Source: Gemmatimonadota bacterium (GTDB lineage Bacteria > Gemmatimonadota > Gemmatimonadetes > Gemmatimonadales > Gemmatimonadaceae). Taken from it: a DNA stretch of 34,002 bases. The position numbers were made by a program, and so were the translations under genes. The stretch covers positions 1 through 34,002 of the forward strand of contig JAHFCT010000034.1 in the NCBI GenBank assembly GCA_023249375.1, read 5' to 3'. The notes under the pieces were generated by a model. The model made no database searches. It was not told the DNA's origin and worked only from the letters and a program-made list of their open reading frames with translations. Below are positions 3,996 through 25,082 of the stretch, one piece after another (the first letter of the stretch is position 1; every line of letters begins with the position of its first letter).

Positions 3996-4952
3996 CTACG
4001 GCCGCGGCGTCGCCTTGCCCTCCCCCGGCCGCGCGATGAACTCGGCGTGCAGCGAATCGTACACCTGCATGCCGCCCGTCACATTGCCCTTCTGATCAAA
4101 CAGCCCGCTGCGCCAGCCGAGTGGTTCCCAGATGGCCGCGCCCGTGCCGAGCCCGGACGGAAGGGCAAAGACAATCTCGTGCACCGCGCGCCTGAAGTCG
4201 GAGTACTCCACGACATTCACCGGCTTGTGATACCGGCTCGTCAGGTCGCGCAGGTTGGCGTTCAGGTCTTCGAGCGTGCCGTGCCAGCGCGGATAATACG
4301 AGAGCCCGATGATGTCGAACGTCACGCCACGCGCGAGCATGTTGTCCAGCCAGAAACTTGCTTCGGCGTTCTGTCCGCCGAGGGCGATGTGCATCATCAC
4401 GGGGATGCGCGGGTCCACCGCCGCCGTTCCCTCAACCCCCGCGCGCAACAGCCCCGCGAGTTGATCGAGATTGCCGATGTGTCCCTCGGGCCACAGGATG
4501 CCGTGATTCACCTCGTTGCCAATCTGCACCATGTCGGGGAGTGTACCCTGTCTCTTCATCGCGTTCAGCACAGACGACGTGTAGCTGCGCACCGTGTCGC
4601 GCAGTGCGGCGTACGGAAGCGTTGCCCATGCGAGCGGCTTGTTCTGCTGCTGCGGGTCGGCCCAGTAGTCGCTGTAGTGGAAGTCGAGCAACAGCCCCAG
4701 GCCCGCCGCCTTCACGCGCCGTGCCATGCTCAGCGTCGAGTCGAGCCCGCAGTAGCCCACCTTCGGCGCGTAGCCCTTGGGATTCTCCGGATTCACGAAG
4801 ACGCGCAGGCGGATGTAATTGAAGCCGTGATGCTTGAGCATCACGATGGCATCGACCTTCTGCCCGCCGTCGCGGAACTCGCTGGTCGCGCCGCCAAATC
4901 GCGACGCACCGCTCTCGATCTGCGGCAGGAACGAAATGTCGGCGCCGATCAT
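3996..4952 (-). CDS. GH53 endo-beta-1,4-galactanase, catalytic domain (separated from its export signal)
   Basis: Arabinogalactan endo-beta-1,4-galactanase (GH53, clan GH-A), cutting beta-1,4-galactan side chains of pectin. The 318-residue frame starts exactly at the first barrel strand (MIGADISFLPQIES), so it has no signal peptide. The acid/base is E147 in VQIGNEVNHGILWPEG and the nucleophile E249 in NVVEYSDF; FNYIRLRVFVNP and LLLDFHYSDYWADP are family signatures. Length matches a bare GH53 domain. The same frame stays open upstream of the ATG and reads APPTAEQLPPTTKPIDR, a typical Pro/Thr linker, joining naturally to the product of the overlapping upstream frame (4949-5476). One gene interrupted by a one-base shift near 4998-5008 is therefore the likeliest reading. 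The alternative is two coupled genes with an ATGA overlap, but that would leave the enzyme without export. Confidence 0.88.
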   Translation of the reverse strand: MIGADISFLPQIESGASRFGGATSEFRDGGQKVDAIVMLKHHGFNYIRLRVFVNPENPKGYAPKVGYCGLDSTLSMARRVKAAGLGLLLDFHYSDYWADPQQQNKPLAWATLPYAALRDTVRSYTSSVLNAMKRQGTLPDMVQIGNEVNHGILWPEGHIGNLDQLAGLLRAGVEGTAAVDPRIPVMMHIALGGQNAEASFWLDNMLARGVTFDIIGLSYYPRWHGTLEDLNANLRDLTSRYHKPVNVVEYSDFRRAVHEIVFALPSGLGTGAAIWEPLGWRSGLFDQKGNVTGGMQVYDSLHAEFIARPGEGKATPRP

Positions 4953-9339: not shown

Positions 9340-12042
9340 CTACGGCACACGCGTCGCCCGCAGCCCCTCCAACACCGCCGTGCTCTCGACGCCGTTCATG
9401 TTGCGGTCAAGCGGCGCATACCGGACTTCCACCGCGTGCCGTCCAGCGCGCAGGTCCAGCGTGATGGCGTTGCTGAATCCGAACTCGCCCCAGCGGCCGC
9501 TGCCCCGCTGCGGCATTACCAGCACGCCGGCTTCGCGTCCGTCGATCAGCAGCGTACGCACGGCGGCCTTGTCCTCGGTGTTGATCGGTCCGTTGCCGTT
9601 GGCGTAGCGGGCGTCGAGTGCGTAGCGTCCGTCGCGCGGCACCGCGATGTCCCACATCACCGACGTGTTGAGCGTCCGCTCGAGACGCAGCGGCGCCCCA
9701 GGCGGCCGTGATACTATCTCCGCGCCCGCCGCGACCACGCGCACCGGCTCGCTGAGAAACGACGCCAGTCCGCGCGCATCGAGAGCGAGCACCTGGTACT
9801 CGCTGAGTGCACTGGCGCTGCGCACCGCCTTCGATGGTGTCTTCACCGTATCGACCGCGCGCCCGTCGCGGTACACGACGTAGCGCACCGCCGACGGGAC
9901 CGCGGCCCACGTCAGCGTCGTATCGCGTCCGGCGACGCGCAGCGCCATCGATGGCGTGGCCGGCGCGAACGCCGCGGCGACCACGCGCCCGCGCAACCGC
10001 TCAGCGCCAGCCGACGCACCAGCAGCCGCACCAGCAGCCGCACCTGCACCCGACGAGACCGCTGCACCCGACGCCGCCGCACCATCCAGTTCCATCAGCA
10101 CGTCGTGCGCTCCCATCAGCGTCGCCGGCACTTCCGCCGCCGACATCACACGCCCATCGAGCGTCGCGCGCATCACGTGCGTCCCGGTGCCGCGCAGCGT
10201 CACCGTCAACGTCGCGCCGCGGTACCGCACGCCACGCAGCACGCGTTCGCCGCCAAACACCTCTGGCACCACGGGCCTGAAGACCAACCGGTCGCTCAGC
10301 ACTCGCATCCCGAACAGCACGCGATACGTCATCGCCAGCGTCCCCGCCACGCTCCACAACTGGCGATCCGAGTTGAGCGCCGTGCCCTCGAAGTGACCGG
10401 TCTCGGCCACCATGTTCTCCTTGTTCGTCAGGAACAGCGCCCCTGCCCTCGCCGTCGTCGCCAGACCATGCGCGACGGCGTCCACATCGCCGCGCTCCGC
10501 CGATGCCCACGTCCAGTAGGCGGTGACAAACGGCCAGATGGTGGCGTTGTGGTAAAACGGCTCGCCGGCGATGAACGGCCAGAACGTCGGCACGCCGAAC
10601 GCGACGCGCGGCGGCGCACTGCGCCCGCCGTCGGCCGCGCCATAGAGCATCGCGAGCGATTCGCCGAGCAGTTCCGCGCGGGGCGACGTCGTCATCGCCA
10701 CGCGACCGTAGCGATACTGCGCGTGATAGCCGAGCGCGGGCTGCCAGAGATATTCGTGCAGGCCCCTGCGAATCGAGTCGGCGCGCGCGTCCCAGGCGGC
10801 CGACGGTTCGCCCAGCGCGCGCGCCATCTGCGCGAGCACGCCGTACGCGCCCATGTGCACGGCATTGGTGCCGAGGTTCTCCGACTGATAGATGTCGGCG
10901 GGCTGCATCCAGCGCGGATAGCTCTGCTCGCGCCAGTCGAGGAATGACGACTCGCCGCGCATCAGCCCTGTACTTGCATCAACCGCCGCGTGCCGATCGG
11001 CCTCGGCGGATCGCGAGATGATGCCATACGCGTTGCGTAGCCAGACCGTGTCGCCGGTGACGGCGAACACCTCCCACGCGGCCAGCGCCCAGGTCATGCG
11101 GTCGGTACTGATCGGCCACGAGCCGCCGGTGCCGGTGTCCTGGATGATCCGCCCCGTGCTGTCGACTTTCATCAGCAGGCTCGCGCGCACCGCGTCGGGC
11201 GCAATCAACGCGAGGGCGAGCACGGCACTGAGCGAGACGTCACGCGTCCACACGCCCGGCCACTTGGCGCCAGCCGACAGCGCGCCATCGGGGCGACGCA
11301 GCTCTTGCAACTCCTCGAGCGACATGCGGTACAGGGCGTCGAACAGCGGCTGCTTGGACTCGAGCGTCGGGAACGCCGAGAGGTCGAGTCGCCGCGCCCA
11401 CATCGCGCGACCATCGGCGGCGCGCGGCCGCAGATATTCCGTCTTGAACGGCAGCGTGACTTCATAGACGCCATCGCCATCCGCGTCCTTCAGTTCCTGC
11501 GGCATCCCCGCGCGCAGCGAGCGCGCGTCCCAGATGAGCGGGTCGGTGTCGCCAATCACCCAGACACTCTCGAGCGTGGTAACGCGCGCGCCGAGCGGCG
11601 GGTCGTAGTAGCCGCGTGAGGCAATGCGCTGCTTCACCGCACGCATGTCGAGTCGGATGGTGACCTGCGCCGTGCCGTCGCCGCCTTCGCGGGCGTCCTC
11701 GGGGCGCGGCAACGATGGCGTCGGCGGCACGGCAAACGCGTAGAGCGGCGTCACCAGGCGACCGCCTTGCGGCCGCAGGTTGATGGTGTGTTCGATCCCC
11801 GGCGGGAACTCGTTGTCGATGCCGTTCAGCGCGAACTTGAAGTGCACCTCGCGTGCAGCGCGCGGATAGGTGCTGTAGATGGTGTCGCGGCCGGCGGCCG
11901 TGGCAACGAAGCGTCCGCCTGCCTGGCGCACGGACGTGGACGAGACCTCGAAACCCGCGCCGCGATACGTCGTGGCCTGTGCCGCCAACTCACGCGCATT
12001 GAACGCAACCAACGCGGCCAGCAGCGCGCATCGCGGTTTCAT
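9340..12042 (-). CDS. Exported six-hairpin (alpha/alpha)6-barrel glycosidase-like protein with C-terminal carbohydrate-binding region
   Basis: A 900-residue secreted protein. Signal peptide at residues 1-22 (MKPRCALLAALVAFNARELA, cut near AAQ). Residues 25-215 form a beta-rich N-terminal region with DADGDGVYEVTLPFK, as in starch-binding-like modules. Residues about 230-580 form an (alpha/alpha)6 barrel like MGH1/GH63/rhamnosidase hairpin enzymes: WPGVWTRDVSLSAVLAL, SSFLDWREQSYPRW, FYHNATIWPFVTAYW and MVAETGHFEGTAL. Acidic residues in the last three are candidate catalysts. An Ala/Gly/Ser linker follows at about 650-680, then an FN3-like segment and a CBM6/35-like jelly-roll (YALDARYANGNGP, WGEFGFSNAITLDLRAGRHAVEVRYAP). 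It is last in the susC-to-GH97 gene set, so alpha-glucan debranching or trimming is the best guess; no CAZy family can be fixed by eye. Start at 12042 gives a clean signal peptide; the longer frame upstream crosses a dispersed repeat. Confidence 0.8.
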   Translation of the reverse strand: MKPRCALLAALVAFNARELAAQATTYRGAGFEVSSTSVRQAGGRFVATAAGRDTIYSTYPRAAREVHFKFALNGIDNEFPPGIEHTINLRPQGGRLVTPLYAFAVPPTPSLPRPEDAREGGDGTAQVTIRLDMRAVKQRIASRGYYDPPLGARVTTLESVWVIGDTDPLIWDARSLRAGMPQELKDADGDGVYEVTLPFKTEYLRPRAADGRAMWARRLDLSAFPTLESKQPLFDALYRMSLEELQELRRPDGALSAGAKWPGVWTRDVSLSAVLALALIAPDAVRASLLMKVDSTGRIIQDTGTGGSWPISTDRMTWALAAWEVFAVTGDTVWLRNAYGIISRSAEADRHAAVDASTGLMRGESSFLDWREQSYPRWMQPADIYQSENLGTNAVHMGAYGVLAQMARALGEPSAAWDARADSIRRGLHEYLWQPALGYHAQYRYGRVAMTTSPRAELLGESLAMLYGAADGGRSAPPRVAFGVPTFWPFIAGEPFYHNATIWPFVTAYWTWASAERGDVDAVAHGLATTARAGALFLTNKENMVAETGHFEGTALNSDRQLWSVAGTLAMTYRVLFGMRVLSDRLVFRPVVPEVFGGERVLRGVRYRGATLTVTLRGTGTHVMRATLDGRVMSAAEVPATLMGAHDVLMELDGAAASGAAVSSGAGAAAGAAAGASAGAERLRGRVVAAAFAPATPSMALRVAGRDTTLTWAAVPSAVRYVVYRDGRAVDTVKTPSKAVRSASALSEYQVLALDARGLASFLSEPVRVVAAGAEIVSRPPGAPLRLERTLNTSVMWDIAVPRDGRYALDARYANGNGPINTEDKAAVRTLLIDGREAGVLVMPQRGSGRWGEFGFSNAITLDLRAGRHAVEVRYAPLDRNMNGVESTAVLEGLRATRVP
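10016..10051. repeat. 12-bp tandem repeat in the linker of the six-hairpin protein
   Basis: Three consecutive 12-base units (GCACCAGCAGCC twice, then a diverged GCACCTGCACCC) encode the Ala/Gly-rich linker between the barrel part and the C-terminal binding region. In-frame units allow linker length to vary between strains without loss of frame. Confidence 0.65.
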
Positions 12043-12086
12043 ATTGATCAGTCTCTCACACATCACGACCCCATTCCACAACGTTT

Positions 12087-12151
12087 CAATCGCGATCCCA
12101 ATCCTCAATCGCAATCCTGAGTCCAAATCCGTGATCTTTGTCCTGAATCGC
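12087..12151 (-). repeat. Dispersed repeat, single-arm copy
   Basis: Read on the minus strand, this 65-base stretch aligns without gaps to the right arm of the palindrome at 24784-24913. Shared cores are AGGACA, GATCACGGATT, GGATT and GATCGCGAT. No matching second arm lies next to it, so it does not fold into the long hairpin. It occupies the gap between the GH97 gene and the six-hairpin glycosidase gene. Confidence 0.65.
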
Positions 12152-12168: not shown

Positions 12169-14274
12169 CTACGGCACCCGCCGTATCCGCACCGCCTGCC
12201 CGCCACCGGGGGCCATGGCGATGCGCATCTTCGTCGAGGAACTCACCGGCATGTGCGTGATCGCCAGCGCGAGCGGGTTGTCCCGCCAGTGCGCCCCCTT
12301 CCCATCCGCATAGATATCGGCCACGTACCGCGCCCCCTTCGGCAGAAAATCCAGCGACACTTCGATCGTCCGCGCCTGTTCATCGGTGATCGCGCCAATG
12401 AACCATTCGTCCTTCCCCTTCGTTTTCCGCGCGACAACCACGTCGTCGCCGATGCGCCCGTGCAGCACGCGCGTGGTGTCCCAGTCCACGGCCACGTCGC
12501 GAATGAACTGGAAGCCCGGCTGGTTGGCGTAGTTCTCAATGAGATCGGCGGCCATCTCCACCGGCGAATACAGCACCACGTACAGCGCGAGCTGCTTGGC
12601 CAGCGTCGTGCGCGGCCGCGCCTCGTACGGCGTGCGCGCCTTGTTCGTCTCGCTCTTCGTCAGCAACAGGTTGAAGATGCCCGGCGTGAAGTCCATCGGG
12701 CCGGCAAGCAACCGTGTGAAGAACAAGATGGTCTCGTGCTCCGGCGGATTGCCGCCTTCCCCGCCCCACGCGTTGTATTCCTGCCCGCGTGCCCCTTCGC
12801 GCGACAGCATGTTGGGCCACGTGCGCCGCTCGCCGGTGTCCTTGATGGGCTCGTGCATCACCACCGCGATGCCGTGCTTCGCCGCCGTTTCGATCACGCG
12901 CCGATGGTGCCGCACCATGTACTGGCCGTAATGATCGTGGCCGCCGGGGTTCACCGTGTCGCCCACGTAACCGGTCTTGATGGCGTGCACGCCGAGCTTC
13001 TCATAGAGCGTAAAGGCGGAATCAAGCTGCCGCTCGTAGTTGTCCACGAACGTCGCCGTCTCGTTGTGCACGATCAGCCCGACGCCCTTTTCCGCGGCGT
13101 GCTTGGCCACCGCGGCCAGATCGTAGTCGGCATACGCCTTGGTGAACGAGAACGAGCCGCCCGTCACGAGCCAGTTGCCGTCCCATCCGGTGTTCCATCC
13201 TTCCACCAGCGTGCCACCCAGTCCGTTGGCCGCCGCGAAGTCGATGTACCTGGTTGCATTCTCCGTCGTCGCGCCGTGCCGCGCGCCGCTCGACCACGAC
13301 ATCACGTTCAGGTGCATCCCCCACCAGATGCCATCGTACTTCATGGGCCGCACCCACGACGTATTCGCAAGGCGACTCGGCGGGTTGAGCTTGAGCGTGA
13401 GCACCGACGGCACGAGCTGTTCGGGCGAATCGGCCAGTTGCATCGTGCGCCACGGCGTCACGAACGGCGTGCGTCCCTTCACCGCGCTGCCGTCCTTCCA
13501 GCGCGTGAGGCTCACCCGTACCGTGCGGCTCTCGCTGCGCCCTGCCAGATACATGCTGGCGTAGTCCACCAGGTTCGCCTCGTGAATCACGGCGTGCAGC
13601 CCGCCCGTGCCAACGAGCGTCAGCGGCGTGTGCACCAGCGTCAGCTTGCTGATGGGACTCTCGCTGTAGAGCATCTCCTGCCGATCGTTCGTCGGCACGT
13701 TCGCCGGAATCCACCACGCCTTCATGTCCTCGGCCATGGCGAACTCGGTGAGTTCATCCATGATCTCGAAGTCCTTGAGGTTCGGCTGGTCGGGCAGTTC
13801 GTAGCGAAAGCCCAGTCCGTCGTCGAAGACGCGCACCACCACCCAGAACTCACGCTGCGGCGCCGCCGTCTCGGTGACGCGCACGCGCAGCTCGTTGTGC
13901 TGGTCGCGCACGTGCGCCACTTCGCCCCATGGCAGGGTGAACGTCTCATCCGCGGACGAGCGCGCGCTGTCACTGACGCGCAATCCCGTCTCGAGCGCGG
14001 GGGCGTTGCGGAAGGTGAAGCCGAGTCGCGAGGGCGTCACCACCGGCTGCCGGTCACGCGTGGCCGACCACGTGAGGCGGCCGTCACTGAGCGTGAGTGC
14101 GACGACGTTGCGCCCATCCGGCGACGCCACGGTCGTGGTTTGCGCGCGCGCAGCCTGCGCGCCCGCGGCCTGAAAGTGCAGGACTGGCGCGGCGGCAATG
14201 ACGAGTGCGGTGAGCGCCGCGCGGCGAACCGAGGTCGCAGGCGAAGTCGTATACGATTTCAGAGACGGGATCAC
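12169..14274 (-). CDS. susB: GH97 alpha-glucosidase, SusB-type (inverting)
   Basis: A 701-residue exported GH97 enzyme releasing glucose from alpha-glucan oligosaccharides. A signal peptide with hydrophobic core ALTALVIAAAPVLHF precedes the N-terminal beta-sandwich (about 45-300), the TIM barrel (about 305-590) and a C-terminal beta domain. By comparison with Bacteroides SusB, E405 (VHNETA) and E475 (MHEPIKDTGERRTWPN) match the paired catalytic bases and E499 (ARGQEYNAWGG) the general acid; E358 (VEGWNTGW) matches a calcium ligand. The segment KTGYVGD has Gly where retaining GH97 enzymes carry the Asp nucleophile, supporting the inverting, alpha-glucosidase branch. The GTG start overlaps the amylase stop (GTGA), implying translational coupling. 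Length is close to SusB (738). Confidence 0.95.
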   Translation of the reverse strand: MIPSLKSYTTSPATSVRRAALTALVIAAAPVLHFQAAGAQAARAQTTTVASPDGRNVVALTLSDGRLTWSATRDRQPVVTPSRLGFTFRNAPALETGLRVSDSARSSADETFTLPWGEVAHVRDQHNELRVRVTETAAPQREFWVVVRVFDDGLGFRYELPDQPNLKDFEIMDELTEFAMAEDMKAWWIPANVPTNDRQEMLYSESPISKLTLVHTPLTLVGTGGLHAVIHEANLVDYASMYLAGRSESRTVRVSLTRWKDGSAVKGRTPFVTPWRTMQLADSPEQLVPSVLTLKLNPPSRLANTSWVRPMKYDGIWWGMHLNVMSWSSGARHGATTENATRYIDFAAANGLGGTLVEGWNTGWDGNWLVTGGSFSFTKAYADYDLAAVAKHAAEKGVGLIVHNETATFVDNYERQLDSAFTLYEKLGVHAIKTGYVGDTVNPGGHDHYGQYMVRHHRRVIETAAKHGIAVVMHEPIKDTGERRTWPNMLSREGARGQEYNAWGGEGGNPPEHETILFFTRLLAGPMDFTPGIFNLLLTKSETNKARTPYEARPRTTLAKQLALYVVLYSPVEMAADLIENYANQPGFQFIRDVAVDWDTTRVLHGRIGDDVVVARKTKGKDEWFIGAITDEQARTIEVSLDFLPKGARYVADIYADGKGAHWRDNPLALAITHMPVSSSTKMRIAMAPGGGQAVRIRRVP

Positions 14275-15863
14275 AAGCGTTGTCCGGTGTGCAGCGCCAC
14301 GGCGCTGCGTGCGTCGAGAGTGAGCGTCACGGTGCCGTCGGCGGCCACAATGACGCTGCGGCCCGCGCAGACGGCGCCGGCCTTTGGTCCAGAGAGAATG
14401 TCGCAGTACGTGCCGGCGGCGAGCCCCGTCGCGATCGTTGCGTTCAGCGTGCTGCTGCCGTTGTTGATGGCCACAAATCCCCTGTCGCCGCGCGAGAACG
14501 CCACGGCGTCACCGCCGTTGTCCCACCCGTGGTCGGCGTCGGTGCCCGCCACCGCGTGGCGAAAACCCACCATCGCGGCAATCCACGGATCACGATGCTC
14601 GCACGTCCATTGGCCAATCACCGCGCTCTCCATCGTCGCGGCGCAGGGCACCGTGGTGGCGAGCGCGGGCGGGCCCGCATCGCGCCCGGCCTGTGTGTTG
14701 CGATCGAACGCATAGCCCGACATCACCACGGCATATCCATACGGCTGCCCCAGCATCCACACGTTGGCGAGGCGATACAACACGCCGTCGCGATAATCCA
14801 CGCCGCTGTTGCGCTGCGTGTCGTGGTTCTGCAGGAAGACCACCGCTTTGTCAGCCGGCATCAGCTGCCACGTGCGCGCGGTGAACGACGACAACTCCGC
14901 CACGCGGTGGCCGTTCGTGCCGTTGAACCGGTCGCCAACGCCGCGAAAGTTGAACTCCGTAACGTCGGCGGCGCCGCTGGTGCCGTAGCCCAGCCCGTAG
15001 TAGTCGGCCGACTTCACCGCCTCGGTGCCGGGATCGATCACTTCGAGAAAGAAGAACGGCACGGCGCGCCCCTCGGCGATGGCCGCGCGATTCACCTTGC
15101 CGACAATGCTGTCGAGTTCCACGGGCTGAATGTGCTTGGCGGCGTCGATGCGAAATCCCGCGACGCCGAGTCGCGAGAGACTCGTCAGGTAGTCGGCGAT
15201 CTTCTGCTGCACGCTCGGCGAACCCGTGTTCAGATCGGGCAAGCCGAGCAATTCACAGTCCTGCACGTTGGCCGCGCTCTGATAATTGTTCAGCGAGCAG
15301 GCCGAGTGAAAATCGGCGGGCGCGTAGAGCGGTTCGTAGTGGTATCGCGTGAACGCGGTGCCATTGCTCCCCACCCCGTCGCCCGGCGCCATGTGGTTGA
15401 TGACCGCATCCACATAGATGTCGACGCCGGCCGCGCGGCAGCGCGCCACCATATCGACAAACTCCGCGCGCGTCCCGCCCTGACTCTTGTCGATTGAGTA
15501 GCTGACCGGTCCGTAGCGTTCCGACCACGGACCTCCGGCGAAGACGTTGTGCTCCTGCGGCGGCGAGACCAGTGCAGCACGAAATCCCGCGGGGCCAAGC
15601 GACCGGCCGCATTCGGCGGCAACATCGGGCCAGTACCACTCGAACAACTGCACAAACGTGTCGCCCGCGGCTGCGTGCCCCGTTGCGCGATACGTGGGCG
15701 CCAAGACTGGCCGCCCCGTGGGCGTCGTTGGTCCTTCGGTGCTCGGCGGATCAGTGACTACATCGGCCTTGCTGCACGCGGTAGTCATCGCCGCACACAG
15801 CAAGGCCGAAACAAACGCCCGGCCCGAGGCAAAACCTCGGACCGGGCGCTTGGACCACCACAC
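14271..15863 (-). CDS. GH13 alpha-amylase, probable lipoprotein
   Basis: Endo-acting alpha-amylase of the animal/Streptomyces-like GH13 type. From the GTG at 15863 the product is 530 residues. Basic n-region SKRPVR, hydrophobic FVSALLCAAM and Cys30 (MTTAC) give a plausible lipoprotein signal. The barrel starts at DTFVQLFEWYWPDVAAEC. Conserved regions are DAVINH (152-157), GFRIDAAKH with nucleophile D240, FFFLEVID with acid/base E274, and FLQNHDTQ with transition-state D348. R238 and N346 match chloride-binding positions of the animal-type group. A C-terminal beta domain closes the protein. The start lies two bases after the susD stop; longer starts inside susD give no signal peptide. A strong terminator-like hairpin (15816-15848) lies within codons 6-16. 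Cleaving surface starch for SusCD is the inferred role. Confidence 0.93.
   Translation of the reverse strand: MWWSKRPVRGFASGRAFVSALLCAAMTTACSKADVVTDPPSTEGPTTPTGRPVLAPTYRATGHAAAGDTFVQLFEWYWPDVAAECGRSLGPAGFRAALVSPPQEHNVFAGGPWSERYGPVSYSIDKSQGGTRAEFVDMVARCRAAGVDIYVDAVINHMAPGDGVGSNGTAFTRYHYEPLYAPADFHSACSLNNYQSAANVQDCELLGLPDLNTGSPSVQQKIADYLTSLSRLGVAGFRIDAAKHIQPVELDSIVGKVNRAAIAEGRAVPFFFLEVIDPGTEAVKSADYYGLGYGTSGAADVTEFNFRGVGDRFNGTNGHRVAELSSFTARTWQLMPADKAVVFLQNHDTQRNSGVDYRDGVLYRLANVWMLGQPYGYAVVMSGYAFDRNTQAGRDAGPPALATTVPCAATMESAVIGQWTCEHRDPWIAAMVGFRHAVAGTDADHGWDNGGDAVAFSRGDRGFVAINNGSSTLNATIATGLAAGTYCDILSGPKAGAVCAGRSVIVAADGTVTLTLDARSAVALHTGQRL
15816..15848 (-). terminator. Strong intrinsic-terminator-like hairpin after susD, inside the amylase coding start
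   Basis: On the minus-strand RNA, CGCCCGG-U-CCGAGG pairs with CCUCGG-G-CCGGGCG (14 pairs counting one U-G) around the loop UUUUG. The stem is followed by UUUGUUU. It begins 18 bases after the susD stop, where an operon terminator would sit, but also lies within the amylase signal-peptide codons. Partial termination would give more SusC/SusD than enzymes. Confidence 0.75.
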
Positions 15864-15865
15864 GT

Positions 15866-17449
15866 TTAGTACCCCGCGTTCTGCTTCAGCTTCGGGTTCG
15901 CCACCAGCTCGCTCGCCGGCAGCGGGTACAGATCGCGGAAGGCTTCCGTCACCTTGCCGGCCTGCACGTTGCCCTTCCACTGCCAGATACCGGCCGTGCT
16001 GTACTGCGCATAGCGGATCAGGTCGGTGCGGCGCGTCCCTTCCCAGAAGAGCTCACGAGCGCGCTCGTCGAGGATGAACGCCGACGTCATCGCCGCGTCG
16101 GCAATGCGGCCATTCGTGTTGCCGTAGGCACGATCGCGCAGCGCGTTGATGTAGCCCAGCGCGGTCGGGCGCGATCCGCCAGCACCGCGCGCCACGGCCT
16201 CGGCGTAGATCAGATAGGCATCGGCTAGGCGGAAGACCGGGAAATCGGTATCCACGAAAGTCGAGTTCTTGCCCTGCGCGCCCGTCGACGTGACGTTCGT
16301 GTACTTGGGCGAGCCCACGCCAGCCTGGTAATCGGTGATGCTGGTGGCGCTGCCCGAGAATCCGTCCAGCGTGAAGAACGACGACCGCTTGTCCGGCGAC
16401 GTCGGCCCACCGCCGTTCGGGTACAGCGCGGCAAGGCTCGGCTTGGTGCGAACGCCCCACCAGCCGCCGTCGATGCCGTAGTCGCTCGAGTTCATGTTGG
16501 CGCCAACCGAGGCATGAATGAGGAACGTCATGCCGCCCCACGTCTGGATATGATCGCCGTCCTGCTCAATGGCGAAGATGATCTCGGGCGAGGTGTTGTT
16601 GTCCGCCGAGAACATGCGGCGGAAGTTCGGGTCCAGCTTGTACGGGCCGGCGATCACCTTGGACGCCTCGGCGAGCGCGTCGGGGTAATGCGTCGTGCCG
16701 CTGTACACGCCGGCGTTCAGGTAGACCTTGGCCAGCAACATCGCCACGGCGCCCTGATCCACGCGGCCGTACTCGGCCGTGCCGGCAGCCGGCAGGTCGT
16801 TGCGAAGTGCGTTGAGTTCAGTGACGACGTAGTTGTAGATGTCCGCGCGGGCAGCCTGCGCCGGCGGCGTCTTGCCGATCTCGTCCGTCTCCTTGACGAG
16901 CGGGACGGGACCAAACAGGTCCATCGCGTGCCAGTAGCTGTACGCGCGCAGGAAGCGCGCTTCGGCGCGGTACTTCACGATTTCGGCCTTCGTGGCCGCC
17001 GAAACGTTGCGGTCCGCCAGCTTGCCTTCGGTGGTCTCGCGTAGGAACTGGTTGGCGAGGCCGACCTGGAAGTAGATGCGATAGTACATCGACCCGAGGA
17101 ACGAGTTCGACGACGACCAGATCTGCGTGTTGAGCTCTACCAGCGGCCCGTCGTTCCAGGCGATCACCGCCTCGTCGGTGGGCAGTTCTTCCATCTGCCA
17201 CCAGAGGCGCATGTACTGCGAGAAGCCTTCATCGAGGCCCGAGATGTCGCTGTTGCCGGCCGGACCCTGCTGGCCGCTGAGCGCCAGGCCACCGTAGATC
17301 TTGGCGAGGAACGCCTTGTACGACCCTTCCTCGGCAAAGATGTTCGCGCTGCTAACGCTGCTCTTGGGTGCCACCGTCGGATCGGTGCACGCGGCCACGA
17401 CCAGCAGCGCGCTGGCGGTGACGAGCATGGAGCGAATCGTCTGTTTCAT
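15866..17449 (-). CDS. susD: SusD/RagB-family glycan-binding outer-membrane lipoprotein
   Basis: A 527-residue SusD-like lipoprotein that caps the SusC pore and binds glycan at the cell surface. The signal ends in ALLVVAAC, with Cys21 as lipidation site. The N-terminal SusD_N-like TPR region contains WWQMEELPTDEAVIAW, FLRETTEGK and the hallmark EARFLRAYSYWHAMDLFGPVPLVKE; TPR helices follow with YAEAVARGAGG. The typical SusD ending ILDERARELFWEGTRRTDLIRYAQY and LYPLPASELVANPKLKQNAGY is intact. The ATG follows a GGAGA site and is 14 bases after susC. Pairing with susC and alpha-glucan enzymes points to starch or malto-oligosaccharides, although the SusD aromatic binding platform cannot be assigned here. 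Confidence 0.96.
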   Translation of the reverse strand: MKQTIRSMLVTASALLVVAACTDPTVAPKSSVSSANIFAEEGSYKAFLAKIYGGLALSGQQGPAGNSDISGLDEGFSQYMRLWWQMEELPTDEAVIAWNDGPLVELNTQIWSSSNSFLGSMYYRIYFQVGLANQFLRETTEGKLADRNVSAATKAEIVKYRAEARFLRAYSYWHAMDLFGPVPLVKETDEIGKTPPAQAARADIYNYVVTELNALRNDLPAAGTAEYGRVDQGAVAMLLAKVYLNAGVYSGTTHYPDALAEASKVIAGPYKLDPNFRRMFSADNNTSPEIIFAIEQDGDHIQTWGGMTFLIHASVGANMNSSDYGIDGGWWGVRTKPSLAALYPNGGGPTSPDKRSSFFTLDGFSGSATSITDYQAGVGSPKYTNVTSTGAQGKNSTFVDTDFPVFRLADAYLIYAEAVARGAGGSRPTALGYINALRDRAYGNTNGRIADAAMTSAFILDERARELFWEGTRRTDLIRYAQYSTAGIWQWKGNVQAGKVTEAFRDLYPLPASELVANPKLKQNAGY

Positions 17450-17463
17450 GTTGTCGTCTCCGC

Positions 17464-20430
17464 TCAGAAGCCGAGGTTGAGGCCGCCCGTGAACGTGCGC
17501 GAGAGCGGGTACAGGTTGTTGTCGATGCCATTGATGCCGGCCATCGGGTCAACGCCGCTGTACTTCGTGCTCGTGAACACGTTCTGGATGGCGCCGTACA
17601 GACGCAGCGACTTGAACTGCGCCAGATTTTTGAAAGTGTATCCGATGCTGACGTTGTCGAGGCGGAAGAAGCCGGCCTTCTCGACGTACAGGTCGGAGAA
17701 ATACTGCGTGTTGACGAAGCCGTACTTGAGCACCGACGCGTGCAGATTGGACGGCGCCTGCGTGCCCTTGAGCGACCGGTAGGTGCCGTTGGCCGACGCC
17801 ACGTTGTTGTAGACGTAGTTGCCCAGGTACATGCGGGCCGTCGCCGACGCGTCCCAATTCTTGTAGCTCACGCTGGACGTGTGACCAAGCATCCAGTTCG
17901 GCGCCGGGTTATGGAACGGCACCTTGTCGTCCTGCGTGATCGCGCCGTCCTTGTTGATGTCTTCGTACATCGCCAGGTCCGGCTTGTCGCCCGTCACCGG
18001 CTTGCCATCAGCACCGGTCTTGTGGCGGAAGACGAGGAACGAGTTGATCGGGTAGCCCGGCTGCAGCACCTGAATGGTGTTGCCGACGCCGCCCTGAATG
18101 CCGCCGACGAGAATCTTGTCGGTGCCCGAGCCGCTCACCGAGACGATCTTGTTGGCGTTGTGCGAGGCGGAGAACGTCGCGTCCCAGCGCCACGGTGACT
18201 TGCGGCCCTCGAGGATCACGGCGCTGATGCCCATCTCGATGCCCTTGTTCTGCATGCTGCCGATGTTCGTCGTGACGTAGTTCGACAGGTTCGTGCCCGC
18301 CGCCACCGGCACCGTGAAGATCAGGTCCTTGGTGGTCTTGCTGTAGACGTCGACCGTGCCCGTGATGCGATTGTTGTACAGGCCGAAGTCGATGCCGAGG
18401 TTCGACGACGCCGTGGACTCCCACTTGATGTTCGGGTCCACCGCGCTCGGGCGAATGGTGCTGATATAGTTATTGCCGAACTGATACTGCGCCTTCGAGT
18501 CGCCGATGGTGTACGTCGACAGGAAGAGGTAGTTGCCGAACGACTGGTTGCCGTTGACGCCCCACGAGGCGCGGACCTTGAGGTCCGACAGTTCCTTGAA
18601 CCGCTGCATGAACGGCTCGTCGATGACGCGCCAAGCGGCGGCCAGCGACGGGAAGATGCCCCACTGATTGCCGGCGCCGAAGCGCGACGAGCCGTCGCGG
18701 CGCACGCTGGCCGTCAGCAGGTACTTGTCACGGAAGCCGTAGTTGGCGCGGCCGAACCACGAAATCAACTTGGCCTCGTCCACCGTCAGGTAGCTCTGCT
18801 GCACCTTGGCCCCGGGGACGCCGTCGACGCCCAGCAGGTTGGTCGAGAGACCTTCGGCGTAGAACGACGGATAGTCGCCGCGCGAGTCTTCGTAGGTGTA
18901 GCCGCCCGTCACGTCAAACGTGCTCGAGATGTCGGCCATCTTCCGCGTGTATGTGCCGAACGCTTCGATGACGGTATTGCTCTGGCGCGGGTTGTCCTTG
19001 TCGAAGCGGCCACCCCGCCCCTGCTCGATCTCGTACTGCGCCGTGCTCGGCGAGAACGAAACGCGCGAGGACTGCGTGAAGTCGTAGCCCGTGCGCAGCG
19101 TGGCGGTGAGCCCCTCGAGCCACGGCGTGTTGTACTTGGCTTCGACGTTGCCGATGCTGCGATAGACCGTGCCCTTCGATGCGATGAGGTCGTAGTCCGA
19201 CAGCGGGTTGTTGGTGCCAAGCCAGTCGGCCCACTGGAAGTACGTGCCGTCCGCATTGCGGATGGGCTGCGTCGGCGCCATGGACGTCGCCGCGCCGATG
19301 CCGCCGGCCGGGTAGTTGTCGTCGGCCTTGCTGCCCTTGATGTTCGCGCGCAGTTCAAGGCGGTCATCGAGCAGCAGGTCGTTGTAGGTAAGGCCCATCG
19401 AACTGCGGCGCGTGCTGGTGCCGAGCACGATGCCGTTCTGGTCGAGGCTGCCGACCGACAGGCGATACCGCATGTCTTCCTTGCCGCCCGAGATCGACAG
19501 GTTCTGCTCGGCGCCGCTGGCCAGGCGCGTCATCGCGTCCACCCAGTCGGTGCTGGCGTTGCCCAGCTTGGAGAGATTCTCCGGCGCGTAGTTGGTCACC
19601 GCGGTACGGAACTGCGACGCGTTCAGGACGTCGGGCTTCTTGACGATGCGCGACGACGAGAGGTTGCTGGAGAAGTTGACCTGCGCCGCGCCGGCGGCGC
19701 CGCTCTTGGTCGTGATGAGCACGACGCCGTTGGCGCCGCGCGAGCCGTAGATCGCCGTGGCCGACGCGTCCTTGAGGACGGTCATGCTGGCGATGTCGGC
19801 CGGGTTCAGGAAGTTCAGCGGGTTGCGGCCGGAGGAGACGCCGCCGCCCACGGAAATCGGCACGCCGTCGATGACGAACAGCGGCTCGTTGCTGGCGTTC
19901 ACCGACGTGCCGCCGCGGATGCGCAGCGAGATGCCGGCGCCCGGCTCGTTGCTCTCGACGACCTGCACACCGGGCACCTTGGCCTGGATGAGCTGCTGCG
20001 GCGAGACGATGCGGCCGAGGTTGAAGGACTTCTCCTTCACGGTCTCGACCATGCCGGTGCGATCACGCACATCCTTGACGCCGCCGTAACCGGTGATGAC
20101 GACGCCGCTGATCTGCGCGGCAGCCGACTTCAGGTTGAGATCGACCGTCACGGTGGCGCCCGCTGCCACGGTCACTCGCGCCGAGTCCGGCGAGTACCCG
20201 ATGCGCTTGGCGCGAACCAGGAAGGAACCCGGCTCCGCGGCGATCGTGAAACGGCCGTCTTCGCGGGTGATGGCGCCGCGCTTCGTGCCGACGATCGTGA
20301 CTTCAGAGCCGAAGATCGGGCCCGAGCCATCACTCGCACGCACCGTGCCGGTAATACGGGAACTCTGCGCGAGCGCCGGTTCGCTCACGCAAAGGGCTGC
20401 GAACAGAGCCACAACTCCGGTTCGCCACAT
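17464..20430 (-). CDS. susC: SusC/RagA-family TonB-dependent transporter
   Basis: A 988-residue outer-membrane transporter importing oligosaccharides with TonB energy. Signal peptide residues 1-22 (MWRTGVVALFAALCVSEPAL, cut near AQ). Residues about 25-105 are the carboxypeptidase-regulatory-like domain (ITGTVRASDGSGPIFGSEVT). The SusC signature VVITGYGGVKD and the plug follow (RIRGGTSVNASNEPLFVIDG, then TVLKDASATAIYGSRGANG). The 22-strand barrel ends in a terminal Phe (GGLNLGF). The ATG at 20430 has AGGAG eight bases upstream; the longer upstream frame has no signal peptide. It is first in the operon. No ECF sigma/anti-sigma pair, SusR-like regulator or hybrid two-component system is in the window, so regulation is not visible. 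Confidence 0.96.
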   Translation of the reverse strand: MWRTGVVALFAALCVSEPALAQSSRITGTVRASDGSGPIFGSEVTIVGTKRGAITREDGRFTIAAEPGSFLVRAKRIGYSPDSARVTVAAGATVTVDLNLKSAAAQISGVVITGYGGVKDVRDRTGMVETVKEKSFNLGRIVSPQQLIQAKVPGVQVVESNEPGAGISLRIRGGTSVNASNEPLFVIDGVPISVGGGVSSGRNPLNFLNPADIASMTVLKDASATAIYGSRGANGVVLITTKSGAAGAAQVNFSSNLSSSRIVKKPDVLNASQFRTAVTNYAPENLSKLGNASTDWVDAMTRLASGAEQNLSISGGKEDMRYRLSVGSLDQNGIVLGTSTRRSSMGLTYNDLLLDDRLELRANIKGSKADDNYPAGGIGAATSMAPTQPIRNADGTYFQWADWLGTNNPLSDYDLIASKGTVYRSIGNVEAKYNTPWLEGLTATLRTGYDFTQSSRVSFSPSTAQYEIEQGRGGRFDKDNPRQSNTVIEAFGTYTRKMADISSTFDVTGGYTYEDSRGDYPSFYAEGLSTNLLGVDGVPGAKVQQSYLTVDEAKLISWFGRANYGFRDKYLLTASVRRDGSSRFGAGNQWGIFPSLAAAWRVIDEPFMQRFKELSDLKVRASWGVNGNQSFGNYLFLSTYTIGDSKAQYQFGNNYISTIRPSAVDPNIKWESTASSNLGIDFGLYNNRITGTVDVYSKTTKDLIFTVPVAAGTNLSNYVTTNIGSMQNKGIEMGISAVILEGRKSPWRWDATFSASHNANKIVSVSGSGTDKILVGGIQGGVGNTIQVLQPGYPINSFLVFRHKTGADGKPVTGDKPDLAMYEDINKDGAITQDDKVPFHNPAPNWMLGHTSSVSYKNWDASATARMYLGNYVYNNVASANGTYRSLKGTQAPSNLHASVLKYGFVNTQYFSDLYVEKAGFFRLDNVSIGYTFKNLAQFKSLRLYGAIQNVFTSTKYSGVDPMAGINGIDNNLYPLSRTFTGGLNLGF

Positions 20431-20516
20431 GTGCTCACTCCTGGGATGGTAGGAAAGTTCGGATTCCACCAACCACTTCGTTGCGGATCGGCCAGCGATG
20501 CACGCGCACACTCGGC

Positions 20517-20906: not shown

Positions 20907-20993
20907 GGGCAGGTGGCAGAGCGGTTTAATGCTCCGGTCTTGAAAACCGGCGTTCCTGCAAGGGAACCGGGGGTTCGAATCCCTCCCTGCCCG
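20907..20993 (+). tRNA. tRNA-Ser (anticodon UGA)
   Basis: An 87-base tRNA with acceptor stem GGGCAGG/CCTGCCC and discriminator G. The anticodon stem CCGGT/ACCGG encloses the loop CTTGAAA, so the anticodon is TGA (reads UCA and related Ser codons). The long variable arm (TTCC...GGAA) is diagnostic of class II serine tRNAs, and the T-loop is TTCGAAT. The 3' CCA is not encoded. Confidence 0.96.
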
Positions 20994-24991: not shown

Positions 24992-25082
24992 GGAGATGTG
25001 GCCGAGAGGCTGAAGGCAACGGTTTGCTAAACCGTCATACGGGCTTAAACCTGTATCGAGGGTTCGAATCCCTCCGTCTCCG
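24992..25082 (+). tRNA. tRNA-Ser (anticodon GCU)
   Basis: A 91-base class II tRNA with acceptor stem GGAGATG/CGTCTCC (one T-G pair) and discriminator G. The anticodon stem ACGGT/ACCGT encloses loop TTGCTAA, giving anticodon GCT for AGC/AGU codons. The long variable arm (ATACGGGCTTAAACCTGTAT) and T-loop TTCGAAT are standard. CCA is not encoded. Confidence 0.96.

Follow-up and report, generated by a model that had tools for sequence, protein, structure and literature searches.

Operons for glycan use are thought to need more of the SusCD import proteins than of the enzymes encoded beside them, and to our knowledge it has rarely been shown outside Bacteroides how one transcript yields such an excess. 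A starch operon of an uncultured bacterium of the Gemmatimonadota, a phylum found in soil and water, raises this question. It lies on the minus strand of contig JAHFCT010000034.1 (assembly GCA_023249375.1), of which positions 1 to 34,002 are the whole stretch analysed, here called the window. Its genes are tightly packed in the order susC, susD, GH13 alpha-amylase, GH97 and six-hairpin glycosidase, and a strong predicted RNA hairpin, HP1, stands directly after susD in the opening codons of the amylase gene. We propose that HP1 is probably preserved so that the import proteins exceed the enzymes in amount. The genome, G000, comprises 3.8 Mb in 120 contigs (C-numbers); other genomes carry G-numbers and individual loci L-numbers. 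Its relatives are deposited as Gemmatimonas sp. or as Gemmatimonadetes metagenome assemblies, and the compared genomes are for the most part metagenome assemblies.

HP1 (15812..15852, minus strand) is a stem of 18 pairs. Its core of 14 pairs, one of them U-G, occupies exactly 15848-15816, as given in a preliminary description of this locus that had also noted the UUUUG loop and the tail; UUUGUUUCGG follows directly after the core. The stem proved four pairs longer than described there, CAAG pairing with UUUG out to 15852-15812, after which comes UUUCGG. The first U's of the tail are able to pair in this way, and the free remainder is UUU. The 5′ end of HP1 stands 13 nt past the susD stop codon (TAA, 15868-15866) and 11 nt past the first base of the GTG (15861..15863) at which the amylase gene opens, itself 2 nt beyond that stop. 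With a stem energy of -38.3 kcal/mol and a loop of 5, HP1 has the stable, GC-rich stem and short loop of an intrinsic terminator, and its 121-nt fold gives z = -3.9 against dinucleotide shuffles.

The rank of HP1 in its genome was taken from a 294-kb sample (about 8% of the genome, with genes called by a simple gene caller and the starts of the other listed genes only partly checked by eye). It is sixth by stem energy among all hairpins on both strands and second among sense-strand hairpins within called genes, where the top site is a wrongly called start. A consensus-pattern scan for terminators lists the HP1 site, but it returned 8 sites in total against 8.7 expected and is uninformative as a whole; the claim that HP1 exceeds chance is based on its energy and on evolutionary tests. 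At the gathering score no Rfam family matches HP1, the window's only matches being two tRNAs, and membership of an Rfam family was rejected on this ground. A dispersed repeat or mobile palindrome was likewise rejected, since the HP1 sequence is single-copy in the genome. The top site of the ranking (contig C29 of G000, at about 21948; L117) is an 18-pair hairpin that ends a gene resembling ribosomal protein S1 and has almost no U tract. It was rejected as a second case of the HP1 geometry because translation of the downstream gene begins only past the hairpin, at an ATG; the site suggests a low requirement for U in the terminators of this lineage.

Is HP1 conserved as RNA, or through the peptide that it encodes? 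An in-frame hairpin directly after susD was found in 11 species, belonging to the same genus (G000, G227, G228, G229, G230, G231, G224 and G222), to g7 (G125 and G137) and to g9 (G156). At fourfold-degenerate sites seven congeners differ by a mean of 0.048 within the HP1 codons (6 sites), compared with 0.455 over the remainder of the gene (133 sites), at a permutation p of about 3e-5; the lowest value in any other 11-codon window is 0.20. When the HP1 codons of G000 were recoded synonymously, none of 400 recodings was as stable (z = -5.2); over all 11 species z ranges from -3.6 to -5.4, with 0-1 of 400 recodings as stable. Compensatory change in relatives, which the preliminary description had named as a check on conservation, was found alongside this synonymous-site constraint: in a ten-sequence alignment 93% of cells are paired, 6 pairs have changed on both sides, and none of 500 shuffles reached the covariation score. 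Related sequences can exceed shuffles without any structure, and the recoding and fourfold-site tests are accordingly the firmer ones.

In G230 one compensatory pair, CGC to CAC with GCG to GUG, alters both amino acids and keeps the pairing. The HP1 loop encodes residues that vary across species (F, P, H or S), and because of this the peptide is not what is conserved; together with the frozen fourfold sites, the variable loop rejects peptide constraint as the sole cause. Conservation of the peptide RPVRGxAxGRAF across two genera would suit a protein-bound DNA dyad, or pairing that arises as a by-product of a conserved signal-peptide n-region, but we consider both extremely improbable. The frozen sites include those of an infrequent CGA codon, and the genome holds no second copy of the element. 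One U-G wobble persists in 9 of 10 species and further G-U pairs are frequent, as befits RNA rather than a DNA dyad. Judged from these comparisons, HP1 is conserved as a structure, and the boundary hairpin is a real, selected RNA element between susCD and the enzyme genes. The coding sequence carries, besides the protein, a message at the level of RNA, and conservation at synonymous sites is enough to reveal it.

Whether ribosomes pass through HP1 depends on where the amylase begins. Its in-frame start codons lie at +2 (GTG), +62 (TTG) and +77 (ATG) relative to the susD stop, and signal peptides were assessed by eye. Starts at +62 and +77 provide no n-region and leave too short an h-region ahead of the lipobox Cys; only the product begun at the +2 GTG has a charged n-region, then a hydrophobic stretch leading up to the lipobox (VWWSKRPVRGFASGRAFVSALLCAAMTTAC, followed by S). 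The upstream start is therefore needed for export and HP1 is translated, in agreement with the preliminary description, which had placed the sole export-giving start upstream of the hairpin. The GTG is served by a Shine-Dalgarno (SD)-like GGGG 8 nt upstream, within the last susD codons, and its SD energy, -6.3 kcal/mol where 103 ATG genes have a median of -3.0, falls in the best quartile of the ATG genes of this genome.

All 11 species (those of g1 and g7, and one of g9) retain an in-frame start ahead of the hairpin, mostly with a good SD. No usable amylase start follows the hairpin in G227 and G229, so that the hairpin must be translated there; a mis-called amylase start was rejected, since these two offer no alternative start able to give a signal peptide. 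In G137 and G156 an ATG stands ahead of the hairpin, and G230, G224 and G222 have starts both before and after it (a second Met downstream), and in those three it may be translated. By these start-site comparisons HP1 is within translated amylase codons, and start sites picked to avoid terminators would mis-annotate the enzyme.

Which is constant, the place of the hairpin behind susD or its place in the amylase gene? Within this operon the susD-amylase junction folds at -38 kcal/mol against -16, -3, -10 and -9 kcal/mol elsewhere, and relatives with longer flanks mostly agree; no strong hairpin follows the last operon gene (9340 to 9056, minus strand), unlike the second. Across the order, the best hairpin within 120 bases downstream of the stop could be scored at 32 loci, those with a recognisable end of susD and sequence of sufficient length. 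At 23 of the 32 susD-amylase junctions no more than 1 of about 30 control windows, drawn from the same genes, equalled that hairpin, and the median energy at junctions was -29.6 against -9.3 kcal/mol in controls. Many of these hairpins are unrelated in sequence, and some have clear U tails (CUUUUUCCC in G282 and CUCUUUC in G056). Six genomes (G056, G081, G182, G076, G282 and G283) have the hairpin in the spacer, ahead of a separate Met. The spacer hairpins, the unrelated sequences and the single outstanding junction of the operon indicate that the constant feature is the place after susD, and that overlap with coding sequence is a local solution.

Two further sets of loci touch on this placement. 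In G204 and G205 (L135 and L027), of a different genus, a perfect 16-pair stem lies 28-63 nt past the susD stop, in signal-peptide codons for TLASMLCVLASV; it is apparently an independent instance of a hairpin carried by amylase signal-peptide codons. The other susD-family genes of G000 also have a strong hairpin about 15-35 nt past their stop, in 3 of 3 cases (L129, L131 and L132, on C10, C1 and C49), and a hairpin after susD may be the rule in this genome.

The spacer hairpins also bear on a brake on amylase translation, in which HP1, with a second hairpin, HP2, in the first codons would slow initiation and early elongation and give little enzyme per mRNA, while ribosomes coupled from susD would be needed to open it. 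HP2 (15763..15809, minus strand; 18-20 pairs, -33 kcal/mol) follows directly after HP1 over the codons of the hydrophobic region and lipobox. The closeness of HP1 to the start codon, the succession of the two hairpins and their retention in the closest relatives would suit such a brake. In other genera, however, the hairpin of G056, G081, G182 and G076 precedes a separate Met, so that its relation to the end of susD is the constant one, rather than that to the point where the amylase begins; we regard the brake as unlikely. HP2 itself ranks fourteenth by stem energy in the 294-kb sample on both strands. Its recoding z is -2.7 in G000, -1.6 to -3.7 in the genus and -0.3 and -0.7 in g7, against a mean of -0.2 for nine lipoprotein-like genes of the sample, this amylase included. 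Paired changes occur in five close relatives, and HP2 is absent from the neighbouring genus g7; it is a secondary feature.

What would a selected hairpin at this place do? We favour, at a probability of about 0.5, a leaky intrinsic terminator that also serves as a 3′-end boundary and would hold SusCD above the enzymes. RNA polymerase leaving susD would make HP1, and a fraction of transcripts would stop there, carrying susC-susD only, with the stem as their stable 3′ end; the remainder would read through into the GH13, GH97 and six-hairpin genes. Since the stem begins 13 nt past the susD stop, a terminating susD ribosome could reach and cover its 5′ arm, and a ribosome reinitiating at GTG 15863 would unwind it, so that the leak would depend on ribosome traffic. 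Terminators of convergent genes in the same genome share the form of HP1 and have equally short U runs (for example AAACGCCCGG...CCGGGCGUUU); the UUUGUUU tail of G000, although partly paired, is as U-rich as theirs. This shared form, the hairpins after the other susD genes and the U tails of G282 and G056 are why a leaky terminator is preferred. Part of the earlier interpretation of HP1 has held, namely that it is translated and placed at the SusCD/enzyme boundary, and the conservation check proposed there came out in its favour. Partial termination fits best among the proposed outcomes; structure, translation and conservation of HP1 are shown, whereas we infer termination, its efficiency and its ribosome dependence.

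Published constructs speak to the expected strength of such a terminator. In E. coli, the finishing ribosome variably represses a terminator that closely follows a stop codon, the efficiency at 17-18 bases being 0.12 to 0.8 depending on sequence; a terminator placed within 100 bp of the start of a coding region usually works, and the starting ribosome does little to repress it (Li et al., 2015; PMC4824070). For a geometry like that of HP1, which lies near a stop and within the first 60 nt of the next gene, partial termination modulated by ribosomes is what these measurements predict; the constructs were engineered from lambda tR2, whereas HP1 is natural and conserved and has a weak U tract. 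Given these results and the 13 nt from the stop, the susD ribosome would be a likelier modulator than the amylase-starting one, and partial termination tuned by susD ribosomes is, by this analogy, the natural prediction.

Several observations weigh against termination. The U tail is weak in several relatives and poorly conserved (GCGCAUGGCG in G224, GCGCUCCGGC in G156), its first U's pair with CAAG in G000, 9 of the 32 junctions in the order lack an exceptional hairpin, and protective hairpins without a U tract are the usual device for stabilising the upstream part of E. coli operons (Dar and Sorek, 2018; PMC5927463). A possible but less probable explanation is a protective 3′ structure without termination: the operon mRNA would be cut downstream, 3′-5′ exonucleases would halt at HP1, and susC-susD would outlive the enzyme part, as in malE-malF. 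Stem and position are indeed better conserved than the tail, whose modest U tract is lost in G224 and G156, and a strong hairpin lacking a U tract is present in 26 of 34 such gene pairs of E. coli, substrate-binding proteins being typical of the stabilised genes (PMC5927463). Against it, the form of HP1 is that common to this genome's convergent-gene terminators, and G222 and G137 retain UUU even though they have lost A's that stood opposite. HP1 resembles the malE-malF and puf hairpins in being a strong, conserved hairpin at the boundary of putatively co-transcribed genes, after a transport or binding gene, and in both settings the upstream genes would likely be raised over the downstream ones. 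Those hairpins lie between genes, whereas HP1 is coding sequence of the downstream gene with a short, terminator-like U run.

In the regulated attenuator raised by the preliminary description, signal-varied translation from the amylase start would melt HP1 and let transcription continue. This is mechanically possible. Melting of terminators by ribosomes is established (PMC3894217; PMC5021804), the +2 start of G000, led by an SD, reads in frame through the hairpin, as in close relatives, and an upstream start stays in frame in all 11 species. Over the first 100 bp, however, it is rare for a ribosome to reach RNA polymerase (PMC4824070), a second Met follows the hairpin in three congeners, and we found no leader, sensing codons, antiterminator fold or signal, though no search was aimed at stalling motifs; predicted folds give one dominant HP1 stem with no competing partner. 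We consider this regulated form very doubtful, and melting from the amylase start less likely than an effect of susD ribosomes. Attenuation in Streptococcus gallolyticus pil1 (PMC3894217) and pyrBI is alike in that a ribosome can stop a terminator from folding; HP1 differs in standing inside the operon, in a structural gene, with no known signal. A leaderless attenuator, in which a susD-ending or amylase-starting ribosome opens a terminator in signal-peptide codons and so sets the enzyme message, is quite improbable. If true, amylase initiation, and perhaps export of the signal peptide, would feed back on how the remainder of the operon is transcribed.

In polysaccharide utilization loci of Bacteroides, susCD operons are controlled at the RNA level (DonS-type antisense RNAs, GibS and RbpB; PMC7366714, PMC11697453), through antisense or trans-acting RNAs or an RNA-binding protein; a boundary hairpin such as HP1 did not appear in the papers searched. 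The open-access literature yielded no previous description of a hairpin like this in SusCD operons, nor any of Gemmatimonas terminators. For a phylum with next to no RNA biology, the locus offers a clean test.

The operon that surrounds HP1 is encoded throughout on the minus strand. susC (17464..20511) is a TonB-dependent SusC/RagA transporter gene (TIGR04056, 676 bits; PF00593/PF07715), the open reading frame of which begins at GTG 20511; its signal peptide MWRTGVVALFAALC suggests a true start near 20430. susD (15866..17449) encodes a starch-binding lipoprotein (PF07980, 7e-31) that scores 340 bits with the SusD model NF033071, under that model's own cut-off of 725. The GH13 alpha-amylase (14271..15863; PF00128, PF02806), a predicted lipoprotein, has the 1g94/1aqh alpha-amylases as its nearest solved relatives. 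GH97 (12169..14274; PF10566/PF14508/PF14509) overlaps the amylase stop by 4 nt (GTGA); from this overlap and the 2-nt spacing ahead of the amylase, co-transcription of susD, amylase and GH97 is inferred. The six-hairpin glycosidase gene (9340..12126; PF17389, 28.9 bits) ends the run.

Elsewhere in the window, two tRNA-Ser genes lie on the plus strand at 20907-20993 (anticodon tga), directly upstream of susC and on the opposite strand to it, and at 24992-25082 (anticodon gct). By eye, 167-2617 is a GH2-like beta-galactosidase and 3996-4952 a GH53-like endo-galactanase, perhaps a separate galactan-use cluster. Amylases 54-58% identical to this one occur in records deposited as Gallionella/Gallionellaceae, Chitinimonas and Parachitinimonas (L049, L050, L061, L062 and L068); this identity is similar to that of distant Gemmatimonadota, and gene transfer is possible.
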